Shown: positions 11,096 through 20,842 of the stretch, piece after piece
How positions within the stretch are numbered: the stretch's first letter is position 1
Layout of the letters: every line of letters begins with the position of its first letter
DNA from: an uncultured Bacilli bacterium
Lineage (GTDB): Bacteria > Bacillota_I > Bacilli_A > RF39 > UBA660
Reading direction: 5' to 3'
Assembly: GCA_947628145.1 (NCBI GenBank)
Contig: CANQYU010000005.1
Location: 1-40,009, forward strand
DNA length: 40,009 nt
Made by a program: the position numbers and the translations under genes
Notes under the pieces: generated by a model
Database searches by the model: none
What the model was told of the DNA's origin: nothing
The model's input: the letters and a program-made list of their open reading frames with translations, nothing else

Positions 11096-12331
11096 ATGCA
11101 CATAAAGGAATTATCTATCGCAGAATTTGATGCTTTTGCTGCTTCCCATTTTTTAAATTCTTATCACCAAAGTTCCGATTATGCTTTATTAATGTCTGAA
11201 AATAATTATGATTATGATTTAATTGGCTATGTGGATGAATTAGGTATTATCAAAGCTGCGGCTTTAATTTTAATCAAAAAAATAAATCTCCATTATAAAT
11301 TTGGTTATTCTCCCAAAGGCTTTTTAATAGATTATTTTAACTTTGAATTATTAAAATCATTTACCGAAGCTATAAAATCTTATTATGCTAAAAAACTAGT
11401 ATTTATAAAAATAAACCCTGAAATAGCTATTGGGGAAATAAATAAATATTCCAAAATAACTAATTATAATCACAATATTATAATTAGAAATCATTTAAAA
11501 ACTTTAGGTTATACTAAATTAAAAGATAATTTATATTTTGAATCTTTATTACCTCGTTTTAATGGTATCATAAATTTAAAAGAATATGAATTTAATAAAT
11601 TATCTAAAAATACTAAAAATAAAATTCGTAAAGCTACTAAAAGAGGTTTAATTTGTGAATTAGCTGATTTAAATAAATTAGATATTCTCTATGAATTTAT
11701 TAAAAATAAAAAAAATATTAGTAATTATTATTATAAAAACTATTATAATATTTTTAGTCGTAAAAATGCTTGTGATTTCTTTTTAATTAAAATAGATTAT
11801 GAAAAATATTTATTAAATAGTAAAGCTTTATATGATAAAGAATTAATTAAAAATAATGAATTATCCGAAAAATTAATAAATAATAATCATCCTGGTTTAA
11901 TAAATGCTAAAATGAATTCAGACCGTACTTTACTTTCTTATAAAAATGATATTGAACTTGCGACTAAAGGTTTAAGAGAAAATAAAACTACTTATATAGC
12001 CGGAGCTTTAACTATTAAATATAATAATCGTATTAATATTATTATAAGTGGTATTAACCCTAAATATCGTCATTTTAATGCTAATTATTTTCTTCATTAT
12101 AATATTATTGAATACTATAAAAATAATTATAAATATTTAGATTTAAATGGTTTAACTGGTGATTTTAGTAATAATAATCATTATAAAGGGTTAAATGATT
12201 TTAAAATAGGTTTTAACCCTAATATTTATGAATTTATTGGCGAATTTGATTTAGTATTAAATAATAAAGCTTATCTTTATTTAAATAAAACTGGAGCTTT
12301 AGCAAAAGTATTTAATAAAAAAAGGGATTAA
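11096..12331 (+). CDS. FemAB/GNAT-fold aminoacyltransferase (peptidoglycan bridge-like)
   Basis: SYHQSSDYALLM near the N-terminus, KLSKNTKNKIRKATKRGL, and C-terminal YLDLNGLTGDFSNNNHYKGLNDFKIGFNPNIYEFIGEFDL. Confidence 0.8.
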   Translation: MHIKELSIAEFDAFAASHFLNSYHQSSDYALLMSENNYDYDLIGYVDELGIIKAAALILIKKINLHYKFGYSPKGFLIDYFNFELLKSFTEAIKSYYAKKLVFIKINPEIAIGEINKYSKITNYNHNIIIRNHLKTLGYTKLKDNLYFESLLPRFNGIINLKEYEFNKLSKNTKNKIRKATKRGLICELADLNKLDILYEFIKNKKNISNYYYKNYYNIFSRKNACDFFLIKIDYEKYLLNSKALYDKELIKNNELSEKLINNNHPGLINAKMNSDRTLLSYKNDIELATKGLRENKTTYIAGALTIKYNNRINIIISGINPKYRHFNANYFLHYNIIEYYKNNYKYLDLNGLTGDFSNNNHYKGLNDFKIGFNPNIYEFIGEFDLVLNNKAYLYLNKTGALAKVFNKKRD

Positions 12332-13083
12332 CCCTTCTTTTTTTTGCTTTTATCAACTGTTTTTATTACTGGCTCTTCAAAATAAGTTTCTTCTTTTTCC
12401 TCTTCTTTAAGCAGTCTTCTTTTTAATTCTTTTTTTCTTTCTTCTTCTAATTTAGCTTTTTTCGGGTCAACTTTTTTCTTATCACCCATTTTACTTGTTG
12501 TATTTTTAATATTAGTTAAAGTTACTATTCGCATAATATCTTTACCAATAATTACCATGGCAGGTATTAAAATACATAATAACCATCCCGCTCTTGAAGC
12601 TAAGAAAAATTGTAATCTTCCCAATTGAGGAATTTTTAAAATTACTTTGCCAATAACGTTATTAAATTTAGCACAAGCTTGGTCTTCAACTGGATTAGCA
12701 TCACCCTTAGTTTTATAACAAACTCTGCCATTTTCATCCTCAGTAATTGCAACGACCCGGTGCGTAATAGTTTTGCCTGGCGATATTAAACTAGAAGAAA
12801 TAAAAGTAATAATATCCCCCTCTTTAATATCCACGGGAGCATCAACTTTAACATTTATAATCGCATCATAAACTTTTATATTAGGCACCATTGAAGCACT
12901 AACTATTGTATATATTGAAAACTTAGGCTCATAACCAGAACCCTTTGCTGCATATATTCTTGTGGCAATATAATAATAAATTAAGAAAGCCGCGGCTATT
13001 AAAAGAATTACAAAAAGGGCCCAAGATAAAATCTTACTTATTATTTTTACTACATTCATAAAAGTACCATTTTTATTTTTCAT
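12328..13083 (-). CDS. sipW: SipW/ER-type signal peptidase I
   Basis: Catalytic Ser motif YTIVSASMVPNIKVYDAI, EGDIITF, catalytic His motif KTITHRVVAI; TM segments at both ends; Lys/Glu-rich tail. Confidence 0.87.
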   Translation of the reverse strand: MKNKNGTFMNVVKIISKILSWALFVILLIAAAFLIYYYIATRIYAAKGSGYEPKFSIYTIVSASMVPNIKVYDAIINVKVDAPVDIKEGDIITFISSSLISPGKTITHRVVAITEDENGRVCYKTKGDANPVEDQACAKFNNVIGKVILKIPQLGRLQFFLASRAGWLLCILIPAMVIIGKDIMRIVTLTNIKNTTSKMGDKKKVDPKKAKLEEERKKELKRRLLKEEEKEETYFEEPVIKTVDKSKKKKG

Positions 13084-13180: not shown

Positions 13181-15967
13181 CTAATTAGAAGCTTTTTTTA
13201 GATATTCTAGTCTAATTTCAATTTTAGCTGAGTAATTAACATTTTGGTCTTCGTCTTGTGGCTCATTTGTCTCTACAAATTCATACATAAGCTCAAATGT
13301 TGCTGTTTCTCCAGCCCCAATTATTAATCCTTCTGCAATAGGTCCATCTTCTCTTAAAGTTGGTATTCTATAAATAGAATTATTATTGCCATCTTTAACA
13401 ACTTGACCATCTTTTTTCAAAGTATATATGAAATTATCACTTTTAAAACCATTATGTACATCAATTAAATTAATACTATAAACTATTGATTTTTCAGATG
13501 TATTTTTAATTGTAAACTTTTGTGTACCCTCGTCAGTGCCATCTGGCCAACCAGGTTGAATATCTTTAACATTAATACCATTTACATAACTTACTACAAT
13601 TGTTCCATTAGTAGTCGTTCCTAGTTCGATATCACTATTACCATTATCCACAGTTGGAGCATTAACTTTCTTAACTAAAGTTACAAAATAAGTTTTAACT
13701 GTTCCATCTTCTGCCGTAACAATGATTGATACTGTTTTACCAGCTCCTTCAACCACTACTGAACCAGCTCCTCTAACAGTTGCTTTTGGATTAACTGCTT
13801 CCGCTTCAATATTAACAGATGTTGCATCATTTGGAATTTCTACTTCATAATAAGTTATATTTTCTTGGAAAGCTGGTTTTAAAACGTTATTACCTACTTT
13901 TAAAGATTTTAAATTAGCATTACTTGATAAACCACCCGTACAAGCAACATCACATTTGCCATCGCCATTGTTATCTATATCCACATCTGGAATATTATCT
14001 CCATTAGTATCCACATTAGTATCAGGCTCGCCATCGCCATTAATATCACAGTTTACATCACATTTTTTATCATTATTTGTATCGACATTTAAATCCGGTT
14101 TTTTATCGCCATTCGTATCGACGTTAGTATCTGGTTTACCATCCCCATTATTATCACAATTATAATCACAAATATTGTCATGGTTAGTATCGCAATTTAA
14201 ATCACAAACCCCATCATTATCGGTATCAAGATTAGTATCCGGTTTATTATCCCCATCAATATCACAATTTAAATCACATTTACCATCATTATCGGTATCT
14301 TGATTTGTTTTGTTTTTATCAGGCTCTCCATCACCATTCGTATCGATATTTGTATCCGGAACTCCATCTTTATTCGTATCAAGATTAGTATCTGGTTTAC
14401 CATCGCCATCTTTATCAATGTTAGTATCCGGTGTTCCATCATTATTATTATCAATGTTTGTATCTGGGAAACCATCATTGTTAGTATCACAGTTTAAATC
14501 ACATTTACCATTATTATCCGTATCTTGATTTGTTTTGTTTTTATCTGGTTTTTTATCGCCATCAGTATCACAGTTAAAATCACATCTGTTGTCGCCATTC
14601 GTATCAAGATTTAAATCTGGTTTACCATCATTATTTGTATCACAATTTATATCACATTCTTTGTCGCCATTCGTATCGACATTTAAATCTGGCTTTCCAT
14701 CACCATTCGTATCACAATTATAATCACACTTGTTGTCACCATTAGTATCGACATTTAAATCTGGTTTACCATCACCATTGGTATCACAATTATAATCGCA
14801 CTTGTTATCACCATTCGTATCCACATTTAAATCTGGGTCGCCATCGCCATCAATATCCACATTAACATCAGGAAAGCCATCATTGTTAGTATCGCAGTTT
14901 AAATCGCAATTACCATCATTATTTGTATCTTGATTCATTGGATTTTTATAATTACCATTTTCATCCGGTCCTACATTAACATCCGGCTTTTTATCTTTAT
15001 CTATATCTAAATTAGTGTCTGGTTTATTATCTCCATTCGTATCACAGTTTAAATCACATTTACCATCTGGTTTACCCTCTGGACCAGTTACATCTAAGTT
15101 AGTGTCCGGTTGGCCATCCTTATTTGTATCACAATTTAATTTACAATTTCCATTTTCGTCTTTTTGATTTGTTAAATTATCGTCAGGTTCCCCATCTTTA
15201 TTGGTATCACAATCAAAATCACAAACGTTATCTCCATCATAATCTTTGTTAATATCTGGAACTCCATCGCCATCTGTATCAACATTTATATCTGGTTCGC
15301 CATCATTATCGGTATCGACATTTAAATCTGGTTTACCATCACCATTCGTATCAATATCTGTATCGGCTTTTTTATCGCCGTCAGTATCTTTATTAATATC
15401 AGGTTTATTATCTCCATCTACATCCACATTAACATCTGGTTTACCATCGCCATTCGTATCTAAATTTAAGTCTGGTATTCCATCTTTATTTGTATCCACA
15501 TTTAAATCCGGCTCTCCATCGCCATTCGTATCACAGTTAGCACTGCAAACTCCAGTATTATCTAAATCTAGATTTAAATCAGGCCAGCCATCTTTATCAG
15601 TATCACAGTTTAAATCACATTTACCATCCCCATTGGTATCTCGGTTAAGTAAATTTTTATCAGGCTTTCCATCGCCATCAATATCGACATTAAAATGAGC
15701 TTTTTTATCGCCATTAAAATCAATATTGTAATCTGGTATTCCATCTCCATTAATATCACAGTTTACATCACAAAAGCCATCACCATCAATATCAATATTT
15801 AATCTTTCATCCTTAGGTCCATTACTAGAATAAGCAAAATATAAACCTAATAAAGTAACTAAAATAATTAATATACATAATACAATAATTACAATAGTTT
15901 TCTTTCTATCTTCTTGTTTTTCTTTTTCTAATAAAGCATATTGTTCTTGTAAAGTTGTTTCATCCAT
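13181..15967 (-). CDS. Large Asp-rich repeat membrane protein (TSP3-like Ca-binding-type repeats, cadherin-like beta-sandwich domain, TasA-like C-terminal domain)
   Basis: N-terminal TM IVIIVLCILIILVTLLGLYFAY; roughly 50 repeats of D(T/I)(N/D)GDGxPDxNV or ...xCDxNC; then LSSNANLKSLKVGNNVLKPAFQENITYYEVEIPNDATSVNIEA (cadherin-like) and a beta-rich end. Confidence 0.85.
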   Translation of the reverse strand: MDETTLQEQYALLEKEKQEDRKKTIVIIVLCILIILVTLLGLYFAYSSNGPKDERLNIDIDGDGFCDVNCDINGDGIPDYNIDFNGDKKAHFNVDIDGDGKPDKNLLNRDTNGDGKCDLNCDTDKDGWPDLNLDLDNTGVCSANCDTNGDGEPDLNVDTNKDGIPDLNLDTNGDGKPDVNVDVDGDNKPDINKDTDGDKKADTDIDTNGDGKPDLNVDTDNDGEPDINVDTDGDGVPDINKDYDGDNVCDFDCDTNKDGEPDDNLTNQKDENGNCKLNCDTNKDGQPDTNLDVTGPEGKPDGKCDLNCDTNGDNKPDTNLDIDKDKKPDVNVGPDENGNYKNPMNQDTNNDGNCDLNCDTNNDGFPDVNVDIDGDGDPDLNVDTNGDNKCDYNCDTNGDGKPDLNVDTNGDNKCDYNCDTNGDGKPDLNVDTNGDKECDINCDTNNDGKPDLNLDTNGDNRCDFNCDTDGDKKPDKNKTNQDTDNNGKCDLNCDTNNDGFPDTNIDNNNDGTPDTNIDKDGDGKPDTNLDTNKDGVPDTNIDTNGDGEPDKNKTNQDTDNDGKCDLNCDIDGDNKPDTNLDTDNDGVCDLNCDTNHDNICDYNCDNNGDGKPDTNVDTNGDKKPDLNVDTNNDKKCDVNCDINGDGEPDTNVDTNGDNIPDVDIDNNGDGKCDVACTGGLSSNANLKSLKVGNNVLKPAFQENITYYEVEIPNDATSVNIEAEAVNPKATVRGAGSVVVEGAGKTVSIIVTAEDGTVKTYFVTLVKKVNAPTVDNGNSDIELGTTTNGTIVVSYVNGINVKDIQPGWPDGTDEGTQKFTIKNTSEKSIVYSINLIDVHNGFKSDNFIYTLKKDGQVVKDGNNNSIYRIPTLREDGPIAEGLIIGAGETATFELMYEFVETNEPQDEDQNVNYSAKIEIRLEYLKKASN

Positions 15968-16052
15968 AACTATACACTCCCTACTATCTTAAAGTATAAC
16001 ATAACCTTAAATTATTCGCAATATCTAAAACTACATAAAAATTAAAAAAACT

Positions 16053-16190
16053 TTACTTTTTAGCAAAGTTTATCACTGGCAAAATTAATGCATCCTTAGC
16101 ATCATAACTAGTAACATTAGATATAAATGCTCTACAATAAGGATAAAGTATAGATGGGCAGTTATATCTAAAAAGTCTTTTATAAACTTT
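16053..16190 (-). pseudogene. SecB-like C-terminal fragment
   Basis: Uncalled frame KVYKRLFRYNCPSILYPYCRAFISNVTSYDAKDALILPVINFAKK*; resembles the SecB C-terminal pattern (..LFPYAR..IS.L.......L.L.PVNF); preceded by stops with no N-terminal part. Confidence 0.55.
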
Positions 16191-16371
16191 TCATTAAAAT
16201 TTGAATTTTCTTTAATCGTTTTTCTCTTTTACTATACATTTTTTTAATTTTTTTCTGTAATTTTTTATCATTTTCTAAATCTAAATACAATTTTTTTATA
16301 TCTTCTAATTCTGTTTTATATTTACTCATATCTACACCATTAAAATTTTTATAATTCATATTATCCCTCAC
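16180..16371 (-). CDS. Small hypothetical Lys-rich coiled-coil protein
   Basis: 63-aa ORF with an RBS-like GTGAGGGAT before the internal MNYKNF. Confidence 0.4.
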   Translation of the reverse strand: MRDNMNYKNFNGVDMSKYKTELEDIKKLYLDLENDKKLQKKIKKMYSKREKRLKKIQILMKSL

Positions 16372-16510
16372 TTAAATAACAAATTTATTAAACTATTATT
16401 TTTTTATAATAAAAGCTATATGAAAATACATCAACAATTATATGTTTCTCTTTTAAATATAAAATATCATAAAAACCTATCAAAATCAACAAATAAAAAA
16501 GTAAGAAATC

Positions 16511-17170
16511 TTACTCTTTATATAATTGTACATCTACTGAACCTTTAAAAGTTTTATTTTCATTATGATTTTGGTCACTCTTAGTATCTTTAAAAGAAAA
16601 AGTTAAAGTAAATTCATAAGTAGTCTCTCCATCTAAAGCTGAATGTTTAACAGTAGCTAACTTAATTGGTGTACTTAAAATCGTATTTGCTCCATCAGTT
16701 AAATCTCCAGTTATTTCTTCTTTACCATTTACTAAATCACCACTATATAATAAAACTGGTACACCCTTATTTTTAGCAGTTAATTTATAAGTAAATTCTG
16801 ATGCATCAATAACACAATTATTTGTTGGTGTTTTACTTTTACATACCTCAAAATTATTACTCTCTATATTTAAAAATATATCATATATTGTTTCATTTTG
16901 AGTTATCGAAGGTGTAACCTTAACTGAAAAATTTTTTGTAATATCTTTCATACCTGGATAAGCATTATCTATTTTAATAGCACTAGTTCCCGCATCATAA
17001 GTAGTTTTTAAAAATGCTGCCGTAGTTACTTTAAGACCTTCCCCAGGGTTATTTTCTATTTTCATTCCCGTTGTAAAATAAGCAAACGAAACCCCTATCC
17101 CCATGATTAAAACACACACAATAACCCCCAAAAGAATAGAATTCTTCTGTCCATTAGTTTCAAATTTCAT
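16511..17170 (-). CDS. SipW-dependent-type (TasA/camelysin-like) secreted protein
   Basis: Start trimmed to MKFETNG (RBS GGAGG); signal peptide NSILLGVIVCVLIMGIGVSFAYFTTG; beta-rich C-terminus. Confidence 0.75.
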   Translation of the reverse strand: MKFETNGQKNSILLGVIVCVLIMGIGVSFAYFTTGMKIENNPGEGLKVTTAAFLKTTYDAGTSAIKIDNAYPGMKDITKNFSVKVTPSITQNETIYDIFLNIESNNFEVCKSKTPTNNCVIDASEFTYKLTAKNKGVPVLLYSGDLVNGKEEITGDLTDGANTILSTPIKLATVKHSALDGETTYEFTLTFSFKDTKSDQNHNENKTFKGSVDVQLYKE

Positions 17171-17310
17171 ACCTAAGCCTCCATAGCTTAAATATAATAT
17201 ATCAAAAATTCGACATTTTTTCAATATTTTTCTACACACTTTATAACCAGTATACTAATAAATTTATAGTGTTTCTATCCCCTAAATCATTGACATTATC
17301 CTTATATTAT

Positions 17311-17419
17311 AGGAGGTATTTCAAATGGAAAGGAAAAATACAGTTTTATTAACAGTAATCGCTGTGGCAACTCTTTTAGTTGCAGTCGTTGGTGCTACTT
17401 TCGCTTATTTCACCGCTAC
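17311..17419 (+). repeat. 5' cassette repeat, copy A (109 nt)
   Basis: aggaggtatttcaaatggaaagg...ttatttcaccgctac, identical to the reverse complement of 20748-20856. Confidence 0.95.
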
Positions 17420-18125
17420 TAACACTACAGAGGGAAATGGCCAATCTGCAAATGTTACTACTCAAAAAGAACTTGGAGGTACTAATTTTAAGTTTGAAGG
17501 TACAGGTCAACATACTTCATATTTAAGTTATCCAGGTGGAATAGGAGTATTGGCTGCAAAAGCAACATTGACTGAAACTACTGAGGATGACGAAGCTAAT
17601 TACAAAGCTAGTTATGGCGTTTCAATTAAATACACTAACAATACTGCGACTAACTTAGAATGGGAATTATATGAACTAGAAACTGAAGATTTAAGTTCTA
17701 ATTTAGACCCAAAATGCTCACTTGTATCAAAAGTTGACTCTGCGCAACATCAAACTCAATTTTGGTATAACGACGATGGAAATGATTCAAGTGGAAGCGA
17801 TTGTACTTTTACTGGAAGTGGTTTAACTTCTCTTAGTAGCCCAGTAGCTAAAGGACAACTTTTAGCTAGCAAAGCTGAAGAGCAAACGATTAGTGCTGTT
17901 TCTAGTGCTGAAGGAGAAAAATCAACAGGACGTTTAAATGGTTTTACTTTACAAACTGATGGAACAGCAGACAATACTACTGGTAAATCTAAATACTATT
18001 ATTTAGTCGTTAGATTTAAAAATGATGGTTCTAACCAAAATGAAGGTAATCAAAACTTAGGTATCAATGTATCATTAGTATTAGATGACAACAGCCCTGT
18101 AACTGCTCCCGTCGCTGGTCAATAA
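17325..18125 (+). CDS. Secreted surface protein A with SipW-type signal peptide
   Basis: MERKNTVLLTVIAVATLLVAVVGATFAYFTA; RBS AGGAGG; own terminator CTATTCC-GTTA-GGAATAG-T7 at 18147-18171. Confidence 0.85.
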   Translation: MERKNTVLLTVIAVATLLVAVVGATFAYFTATNTTEGNGQSANVTTQKELGGTNFKFEGTGQHTSYLSYPGGIGVLAAKATLTETTEDDEANYKASYGVSIKYTNNTATNLEWELYELETEDLSSNLDPKCSLVSKVDSAQHQTQFWYNDDGNDSSGSDCTFTGSGLTSLSSPVAKGQLLASKAEEQTISAVSSAEGEKSTGRLNGFTLQTDGTADNTTGKSKYYYLVVRFKNDGSNQNEGNQNLGINVSLVLDDNSPVTAPVAGQ

Positions 18126-19153: not shown

Positions 19154-19180
19154 TGTGTACCACTTGTTAAGTGGTACACA
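19154..19180. repeat. Perfect 12-3-12 palindrome next to the truncated cassette
   Basis: TGTGTACCACTT-gtt-AAGTGGTACACA, ends 3 nt before the shared 45-nt core. Confidence 0.95.
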
Positions 19181-19908
19181 TTATAGTTGCAGTCGTTGGT
19201 GCTACTTTCGCTTATTTCACCGCTACTAGTACTAATAATACAGATGCTGAACCTAGTGCAAATGTTAATACTAATAAGGTTAATAGTACAAAGTTTGATT
19301 TTACTGATGAATCAGTAGGCAAAACTATGCTAGATTATCCTGGAGGTATTGCAGTTTTAGGCGCTAAAGCTGTTGGTTCAGTAGAAAGTTATGATTCAAC
19401 AGAGTCAAAATTTAGTTTTAAATTAAAAGTTGAAGGTTCAAATACTACGAAGACTGATATAGTTTGGATCCTATATAAAAAAGATACTCAAGCAACTTTA
19501 ACTAATATTGATAATTGTAAAAAAGTGGTTGAATATTCTCAAAGTGACAATAAAACTTACTATTATTACTCTGCAAATGGTACTACAGCATCTCATGGTG
19601 TTGGCAAATCTTGTAATTTAACTAACTTGGAACTTTCTGATGGTGATTTTGGAACTAAAATAGCTAGTGGTAAAGTTGCGGCTAGCGAAAATGGCGAAAC
19701 ACCGGGTAGTGTAACATTAGATGATATTGAAACAATTCCTGTACAAGAACTAACGACTGCTTCAGGTACAGTTACTTCTTATTATTATCTAGTTGCTACT
19801 TATGAAAATAAAGCAGACGATGACGTTAATCAAACTACTGATGATACATCAAAATCAATTAAAGTTTCTTTTGCAATTGACGGTGATGTTACCGCAGAAA
19901 CTGTTTAA
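19171..19908 (+). pseudogene. Silent cassette B: surface-protein gene lacking RBS, start and signal-peptide n-region
   Basis: Frame begins GTGGTACACATTATAGTTGCAGTC... with an in-frame TAA immediately upstream and no SD; mature region is paralogous to A (LDYPGGI.VL.AKA). Confidence 0.7.
19184..19228 (+). repeat. Core cassette repeat, copy B (45 nt shared with A; 43 nt shared inverted with C)
   Basis: tagttgcagtcgttggtgctactttcgcttatttcaccgctacta, identical to 17377-17421; first 43 nt identical to the reverse complement of 20748-20790. Confidence 0.95.
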
Positions 19909-20110: not shown

Positions 20111-20842
20111 TTATTCTGATTTAGCACTAACTTTTGTACCAGTAACACCAGTTAATTGAATCTTTATATCTTTACCAGCATCTTGTTCAGCTTGATTTTC
20201 TTCAGTTTTGTTAGCATATTTTAGTACTAAGTAATAATGTGTTCCACTAGCATCAGCATCTTCTGCATCTAATTTTTGGTCAGCAATTGTAACATCAAAT
20301 TTTCCATCCTCGTCACCAGATAAATCTAAACTTTGGTCTTCTCGATATAATGCGGTACCTTCACTTAAAGCTGTAGCAAGTGCACAACCATCAACATACA
20401 TTTCAGGATTACCAGATGTACCAGCGGCATTATGATATACGCAACTAGTAATTGGGTTTGCTTGGGATGTTTCTACTCTATAAACATTATAAGTAAATGT
20501 AGATGTAGATGATGCAGTTTTAAATGCACTTAAATCTATTTGGCCATTTAAAGTATAAGTAACTTCAAAATCGCCAGTATGTTCACCTGCATATTCTGCT
20601 TTAACACCAACGCCAGTAGCTAACCATACACCAGGATAAACATTTTCAAAATTATTTACTGTTTCTGGTGATGATGTAACATTAATTCCACTTACTTTTG
20701 CAGTTTCAACATCAGTAGCTGTTCCTCCTGTCTCACCACCAGTTGCGGTAGCGGTGAAATAAGCGAAAGTAGCACCAACGACTGCAACTAAAAGAGTTGC
20801 CACAGCGATTACTGTTAATAAAACTGTATTTTTCCTTTCCAT
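20111..20842 (-). CDS. Secreted surface protein C with SipW-type signal peptide
   Basis: N-terminus identical to A; promoter TTGCAA (20892-20897), 17 bp, TATGAT (20869-20874); RBS AGGAGG; terminator-like hairpin at 20081-20110. Confidence 0.88.
   Translation of the reverse strand: MERKNTVLLTVIAVATLLVAVVGATFAYFTATATGGETGGTATDVETAKVSGINVTSSPETVNNFENVYPGVWLATGVGVKAEYAGEHTGDFEVTYTLNGQIDLSAFKTASSTSTFTYNVYRVETSQANPITSCVYHNAAGTSGNPEMYVDGCALATALSEGTALYREDQSLDLSGDEDGKFDVTIADQKLDAEDADASGTHYYLVLKYANKTEENQAEQDAGKDIKIQLTGVTGTKVSAKSE

Follow-up and report, generated by a model that had tools for sequence, protein, structure and literature searches.

Strictly paired cysteines in a predicted calcium-type rod protein encoded at a putative SipW/TasA-type fibre locus of uncultured Bacilli

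Metazoan TSP3 repeats place tandem acidic Ca2+ loops in an extended assembly that also contains disulfides, and these disulfides join cysteines lying farther apart in sequence. The loop motif itself, Dx[DN]xDG, recurs in diverse Ca2+-binding families (EF-hand, FG-GAP/calcium blades, TSP3, dockerin) with a near-identical binding mode (PMC3123361); that paper cites the TSP3 calcium core, and its main text nowhere mentions cysteine or disulfide. A related fibre locus is tapA-sipW-tasA of B. subtilis, in which an accessory protein and TasA-like subunits are encoded beside a SipW-type peptidase. TasA is known to assemble by donor strands, and the Bacillus cereus sipW-calY (camelysin) operon encodes SipW and two camelysin-family proteins without TapA; the available part of that account mentions neither a rod nor a repeat protein that carries paired Cys in the operon (PMC10151520). 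Exported proteins of obligate anaerobes are reported to be kept free of Cys, and an even number of Cys is read as a mark of oxidative folding (PMC12453122).

The window (the whole 40,009-nt stretch of DNA analysed here) encodes a rod protein that shares features with several of these systems (Table 1). A first-pass annotation had picked out the open reading frame and its Asp-rich repeat of about 12 aa, and both lie exactly where it placed them. The repeat unit, D1xN3xD5GxxD9, has the loop motif of the Dx[DN]xDG folds (PMC3123361), but its units are contiguous, without intervening helices or propeller blades, and each makes a choice between C/C and P/V at positions 8 and 12 (full consensus D1xN3xD5Gx[C/P]8 D9xN11[C/V/L/I]12). 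Tandem acidic loops of the Ca2+ type are likewise shared with metazoan TSP3, whereas the rod places an i,i+4 Cys pair inside a single unit and matches no TSP3 profile. The neighbourhood resembles that of B. subtilis, with a difference in the accessory protein: TapA is a donor or initiator with a complete Ig domain, whereas the rod, about 600 aa long and putatively membrane-anchored, would carry an acceptor TasA-like domain without a donor strand. The B. cereus operon is alike in being a SipW locus, and some rod tips weakly match the camelysin family PF12389. Calcium-loop chemistry and this type of fibre locus are thus already known, whereas we could not find the architecture or the Cys rule described in the open-licence literature.

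Table 1. The rod gene, its domains and neighbouring genes in the window (residue numbers are those of the rod protein)
Feature	Position	Strand	Remarks
Rod protein, 928 aa	13181..15967	minus	comprises a membrane helix, 12-aa repeats of the Ca2+ type with paired Cys, a cadherin-like and a TasA-like domain
N-terminal membrane helix, residues 24-42	15842..15898	minus	contains the only unpaired Cys, C31
Rod, residues 59-676	13940..15793	minus	about 50 repeats, 17 CxxxC pairs, short linkers
Cadherin-like beta-sandwich domain, residues 688-764	13676..13906	minus	PF12733, 24.6 bits against a cut-off of 24.2
TasA-like C-terminal domain, putatively acceptor-type	13184..13606	minus	hhalign to neighbouring TasA-like subunits
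SipW-type (ER/archaeal-type) signal peptidase I	12328..13083	minus	TIGR02228, E 8.1e-26; about 100 bp downstream of the rod gene
TasA-like subunit, SipW-type signal GVSFAYF	16511..17239	minus	TIGR04088, 14.3 bits, below the cut-off of 19
SipW-dependent-type exported protein, signal GATFAYFTATN	17325..18125	plus	TIGR04088 above cut-off; two ectodomain Cys
Paralogous SipW-type exported protein	19171..19908	plus	TIGR04088 below cut-off; two ectodomain Cys
Paralogous SipW-type exported protein	20111..20842	minus	TIGR04088 below cut-off; two ectodomain Cys

Judging from profile matches and gene order, the rod gene belongs to a putative SipW/TasA-type fibre locus, with the peptidase beside its presumed substrates. 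The peptidase scores 90.8 bits with TIGR02228 (cut-off 51.85) and does not reach the strict Bacillus SipW model NF046067 (82.8 versus 190). A same-strand SipW-type homologue lies downstream of the rod gene in 31 loci, 21 loci encode a TasA-like protein upstream of it in the same orientation, and SipW-type genes adjoin rod genes in a similar arrangement in other genera. About 530 bp (15968-16510) separate the TasA-like and rod genes of the window, compared with about 50-130 bp in most relatives. The ectodomain Cys pair of the three SipW-type paralogues, which share a GATFAYFTAT signal, is variably spaced, and other loci hold several GATFAYFTAT-type paralogues on both strands, like a variable repertoire of fibre subunits.

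AlphaFold2, given eight repeats of the window's rod and 31 in-register relatives, returned a model with a pLDDT of 92.2 and a pTM of 0.80, in which regular bridge residues occupy positions 10 and 12 of each unit. The tandem DxDxDG calcium loop found in the rod is common to many unrelated Ca2+ folds; because the Dx[DN]xDG motif binds Ca2+ near-identically in diverse families (PMC3123361), we infer that the rod units very probably do so as well. The label 'TSP3-like' in the first-pass annotation does not hold as a statement of membership, as the matches listed for 32 repeat segments, up to E<=10, and those of the whole protein include no Pfam model of TSP3. Dockerin was also absent among the 32 segments and EF-hand matched only weakly; memberships in TSP3, dockerin, EF-hand and MSCRAMM families were all rejected by profile searches. 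FG-GAP-type DxDxDG loops are among the nearest matches, which stay under threshold; FG-GAP itself matches weakly in 21 of the 32 segments (best E 2.2e-5; first member at 16.4 bits, under the cut-off of 22.1). No paper on the C/C-or-P/V alternation was found among open-licence papers. A PDB sequence search found nothing meaningful, and Foldseek with the rod model gave zero matches in the PDB and viral libraries, which is not evidence of a new fold because repetitive sequence may be masked.

The clearest property of the rod is the pairing of its cysteines. Besides C31 in the membrane helix, the protein has 34 Cys (35 in total), and these form 17 CxxxC pairs at repeat positions 8 and 12 without a single rod singleton, in agreement with the original count; degenerate units (DENGNCKLNC and GKPDGKCDLNC) hold two of the 17 pairs. 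With 17 Cys at each position, the chance of a perfect 8/12 coincidence would be 4.6e-14 for 52 repeats (order 1e-13 for about 50), a figure that overstates independence because repeats within one protein arise by duplication. A comparison across the family addresses this problem. Relatives from the same genus and genome contigs gave 47 family proteins (48 ORFs, with the unrelated L068 excluded), whose in-register repeats comprise 915 C/C units, 1368 with neither Cys and one apparent singleton. That singleton is a register artefact, a four-residue slip, and 62 'singletons' of a looser parse, in which the DxNxDG frame was read from the wrong D with a four-residue shift, likewise disappear in strict register. 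Homologous repeats were compared between protein pairs at least 65% identical (counts that are not phylogenetically independent): 937 are C/C in both, 1660 non-Cys in both, and 116 (103 distinct sequence pairs) switch at both positions, against 0 half switches. Despite the shared ancestry of the proteins, this lack of half states is unambiguous. The covariation of positions 8 and 12 as C/C or non-C/non-C, for which a repeat alignment had been proposed as a check, is therefore a property of all 47 proteins, with no genuine unpaired rod Cys. The claim of a uniform CxxxC has to be narrowed slightly: it accounts for 2392 of 2424 rod Cys, and the remaining 32, in a few relatives, use other spacings (CX4C, CX5C, CX8C, CX11C) in irregular local pairs. 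Near residue 70 of one relative (L107), a juxtamembrane CTGGCLFC cluster makes the Cys count odd just outside the rod.

Of 928 strict repeats that lack Cys, 780 combine P8 with I, L or V at position 12, so these two sites of a unit look like a single contact, which would be either hydrophobic or a disulfide. About a third of the units in the window's rod are C/C, and their placement across the family follows a rule: all 117 units that follow an 'xNQ' linker are C/C, and so is the repeat that closes the rod in each of the 45 complete main-set proteins, while the final repeat is non-Cys in three relatives from another genus. Since the putative disulfide units directly follow breaks in register and also close the rod on its C-terminal side, they would act as clips, and the simplest reading is that CxxxC clips pin a solenoid at its ends and wherever its register breaks. 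Staples spaced along a rod of the Ca2+-binding type, as first proposed, thus appear to be the best description. That first annotation passed over the surroundings, which are more informative: the N-terminal membrane helix, the C-terminus made of PF12733 and a TasA-like domain, the SipW/TasA-type locus and the patterned placement of the staples.

The number of rod Cys is even in 47 of 47 rods, the distance within a CxxxC pair is fixed while that between pairs ranges from 4 to 107 residues, and the count is divisible by four in only 21 of the 47, which is what two-thiol units predict; we consider intra-repeat disulfides quite likely on this basis. The first-pass annotation had named disulfides and metal binding side by side. 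Thiolate metal sites (Zn, Cu(I) or Fe), in which neighbouring turns or chains would each lend a pair to a four-thiolate site and the rod would be a giant surface metal store, would suit genomes without dedicated disulfide-forming enzymes, a gut habitat presumed to be anaerobic, and the very high Cys content of some relatives (up to 179 Cys). However, lone pairs separated from others by 20, 32 or 47 residues are frequent, exported neighbours that have no CxxxC mostly contain exactly two Cys, and C8/C12 gives way to P8/V12 at homologous positions with no other consistent change; together with parity and the lack of a preference for multiples of four, these observations fit disulfides better and leave the metal half of the earlier proposal unlikely. 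It could also be argued that the pairing is a relic of duplication, in which ancestral C/C and P/V units were copied and the pairing was never selected. Duplication of units within the gene is clear, and a change from P/V to C/C needs several base changes, so that point mutation would rarely yield half states. This explanation is nevertheless largely refuted, and we give it very little weight: the 103 distinct double-switch pairs are accompanied by not one half switch, about 2,280 units contain no singleton that has drifted, parity extends to the 32 irregularly spaced Cys and largely to unrelated neighbours, and the unit after a linker is invariably C/C.

If the pairs are disulfides, as we favour, the question of their oxidation arises. 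Two ectodomain Cys are present in 16 of 21 TasA-like proteins (none in three, one in one and three in one) and in 25 of 29 GATFAYF-type proteins (four in three, seven in one); the exported neighbours thus share paired Cys, and pairing typifies exported proteins at these loci beyond the repeat. Profiles for DsbA, DsbB and VKOR had no match in any of the 36 genus genomes, in which control profiles did match. A search with PF00085 found a thioredoxin-family protein throughout the same 36 genomes, and strong matches to PF00578 (AhpC/TSA) occur in only 3 of them. At two loci (L116 and L117; G019:C22 and G003:C1), genes for a CcdA-like membrane protein, a membrane-anchored CPPC thioredoxin and a small lipoprotein form a possible extracytoplasmic thiol system, and similar thioredoxin-like frames of 147-168 aa are found in about a dozen of the 36 genomes. 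Considered as alternative catalysts, thioredoxin, the CPPC thioredoxin with its CcdA-like partner, and AhpC/TSA all fail to parallel the distribution of the rod, and the latter two are not general. Against the reported avoidance of Cys in what obligate anaerobes export (PMC12453122), these rods have up to about 170 Cys, keep pair parity without exception in those analysed, and occur in a genus sample with no recognised Dsb enzyme. Two testable questions follow: by what route such cells would make disulfides, and what attaches a TasA-type fibre to a cell without TapA. The 12-aa unit, with its C/C or P/V alternatives, also amounts to a clean natural experiment in exchanging a hydrophobic contact for a disulfide, which could be useful for protein design.

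At the other end of the rod, hhalign finds the C-terminal domain homologous to the TasA-like subunits encoded nearby (97.9%, E 3.7e-13), and PF12733, in the domain before it, is matched by 25 of 37 relatives. The alignment covers template columns 39-200; as it begins only after the subunit's signal and first strand, the rod's TasA-like domain would lack a donor strand. Its invariant residues include the Pro of an 'I-x-P-G-W' motif and a late Gln (P18 and Q117 in A3), which are similar in kind to P62 and Q232 of TasA. Those two residues form part of the proline box conserved where TasA meets the donor strand (PMC10151520), and the equivalence is positional, not structural. Camelysin PF12389 matched weakly in 6 of 37 tips, and a kinship of tip and neighbouring subunits with TasA or camelysin itself, which may exist, rests on these weak matches and on the positional analogy to P62/Q232. 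Foldseek with the two-domain tip returned only unrelated beta-sandwich proteins, at TM below 0.3. A second type of tip, about 175 aa long with two conserved Cys far apart, occurs in seven relatives (L038, L046, L047, L049, L050, L052 and L053), where the preceding SipW-type protein is a different one (YSAFF/YSSFF signal) and has no ectodomain Cys in six of the seven. Two proteins of another genus (L105 and L106) have C/C calcium units inside large multi-domain adhesin-like proteins without a TasA-like tip.

These results can be combined into a proposal, in which we have moderate confidence: a cell-surface, membrane-anchored rod of the Ca2+ type, clipped by disulfides, would present an acceptor-only TasA-like fibre domain. 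The N-terminal helix, oriented N-in, would hold a rod built from about fifty units of 12 residues; in every unit, a Dx[DN]xDG-x-x-D calcium loop would lead into a bridge of two to three residues. Residues 8 and 12 would touch, usually as Pro with Val, Leu or Ile and in about a third of units as a Cys-Cys disulfide, and the disulfides would hold the calcium solenoid where stacking breaks off. The cadherin-like and TasA-like domains would form the tip, which, as it keeps acceptor residues without a donor strand, would accept the donor strand of a co-encoded TasA-like subunit and so tie the fibre to the membrane. The charged N-terminus ahead of the helix, with five K/R before it and two after, is consistent with an N-in/C-out orientation, and the N-terminus has no match to TIGR04088 (the SipW-type signal); cleavage of the helix by SipW would make the rod a secreted component of the fibre and not an anchor. 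A role in tethering the fibre is a reading that we favour by a small measure. The fuller proposal is more tentative, and we would not yet bet on it: that a calcium solenoid with i,i+4 intra-repeat disulfides at its segment ends serves, bound to the membrane, as the acceptor end on which a TasA-like fibre of donor-strand type terminates, that these gut Bacilli make dozens of disulfides in each molecule without DsbA, DsbB or VKOR, and that this is a new extracellular architecture.

The tethering role competes with another one, in which the rod is a free-standing surface adhesin or spacer and its adjacency to SipW and TasA-like genes reflects shared export by SipW, with no anchoring of fibres. 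The adhesin-like C-termini that follow rod units in L105 and L106 speak for this, as does the two-Cys tip of about 175 aa; the homology of the TasA-like tip to the adjacent subunit and the recurrence of gene order across loci and genera argue against it, and we hold it to be doubtful, though the more credible of the alternatives considered. A flexible stalk like the SD repeats of MSCRAMM adhesins (ClfA/Sdr) is, by comparison, scarcely credible and refuted as membership. The NCBIfam MSCRAMM_ClfA and Sdr models do match at E of about 1e-34 to 1e-30, but with scores far under the curated cut-offs (118 versus 1150 bits), and the matches look compositional because they fall below the cut-offs and are confined to the Asp-rich part of the models. 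Moreover, the 12-aa Dx[DN]xDG repeat has a confidently predicted fold, and no LPXTG-type end was seen in the rod protein sequence.

The rod family is lineage-restricted. The C/C unit is present in 30 of 36 genomes of the genus, the window's own included, and in 0 of 24 genomes sampled outside it in a first sample; order-wide, it was found in 119 of 385 genomes and 30 of 117 genera. A sample of the phylum returned the rod family only, plus one short DRDC-type simple repeat that was judged unrelated by its sequence. Within the family, one relative (L063; G012:C64) has most of its calcium loops replaced by longer Gly-rich loops of the DDGSxGGxxGDG type at wider spacing, and keeps every CxxxC.
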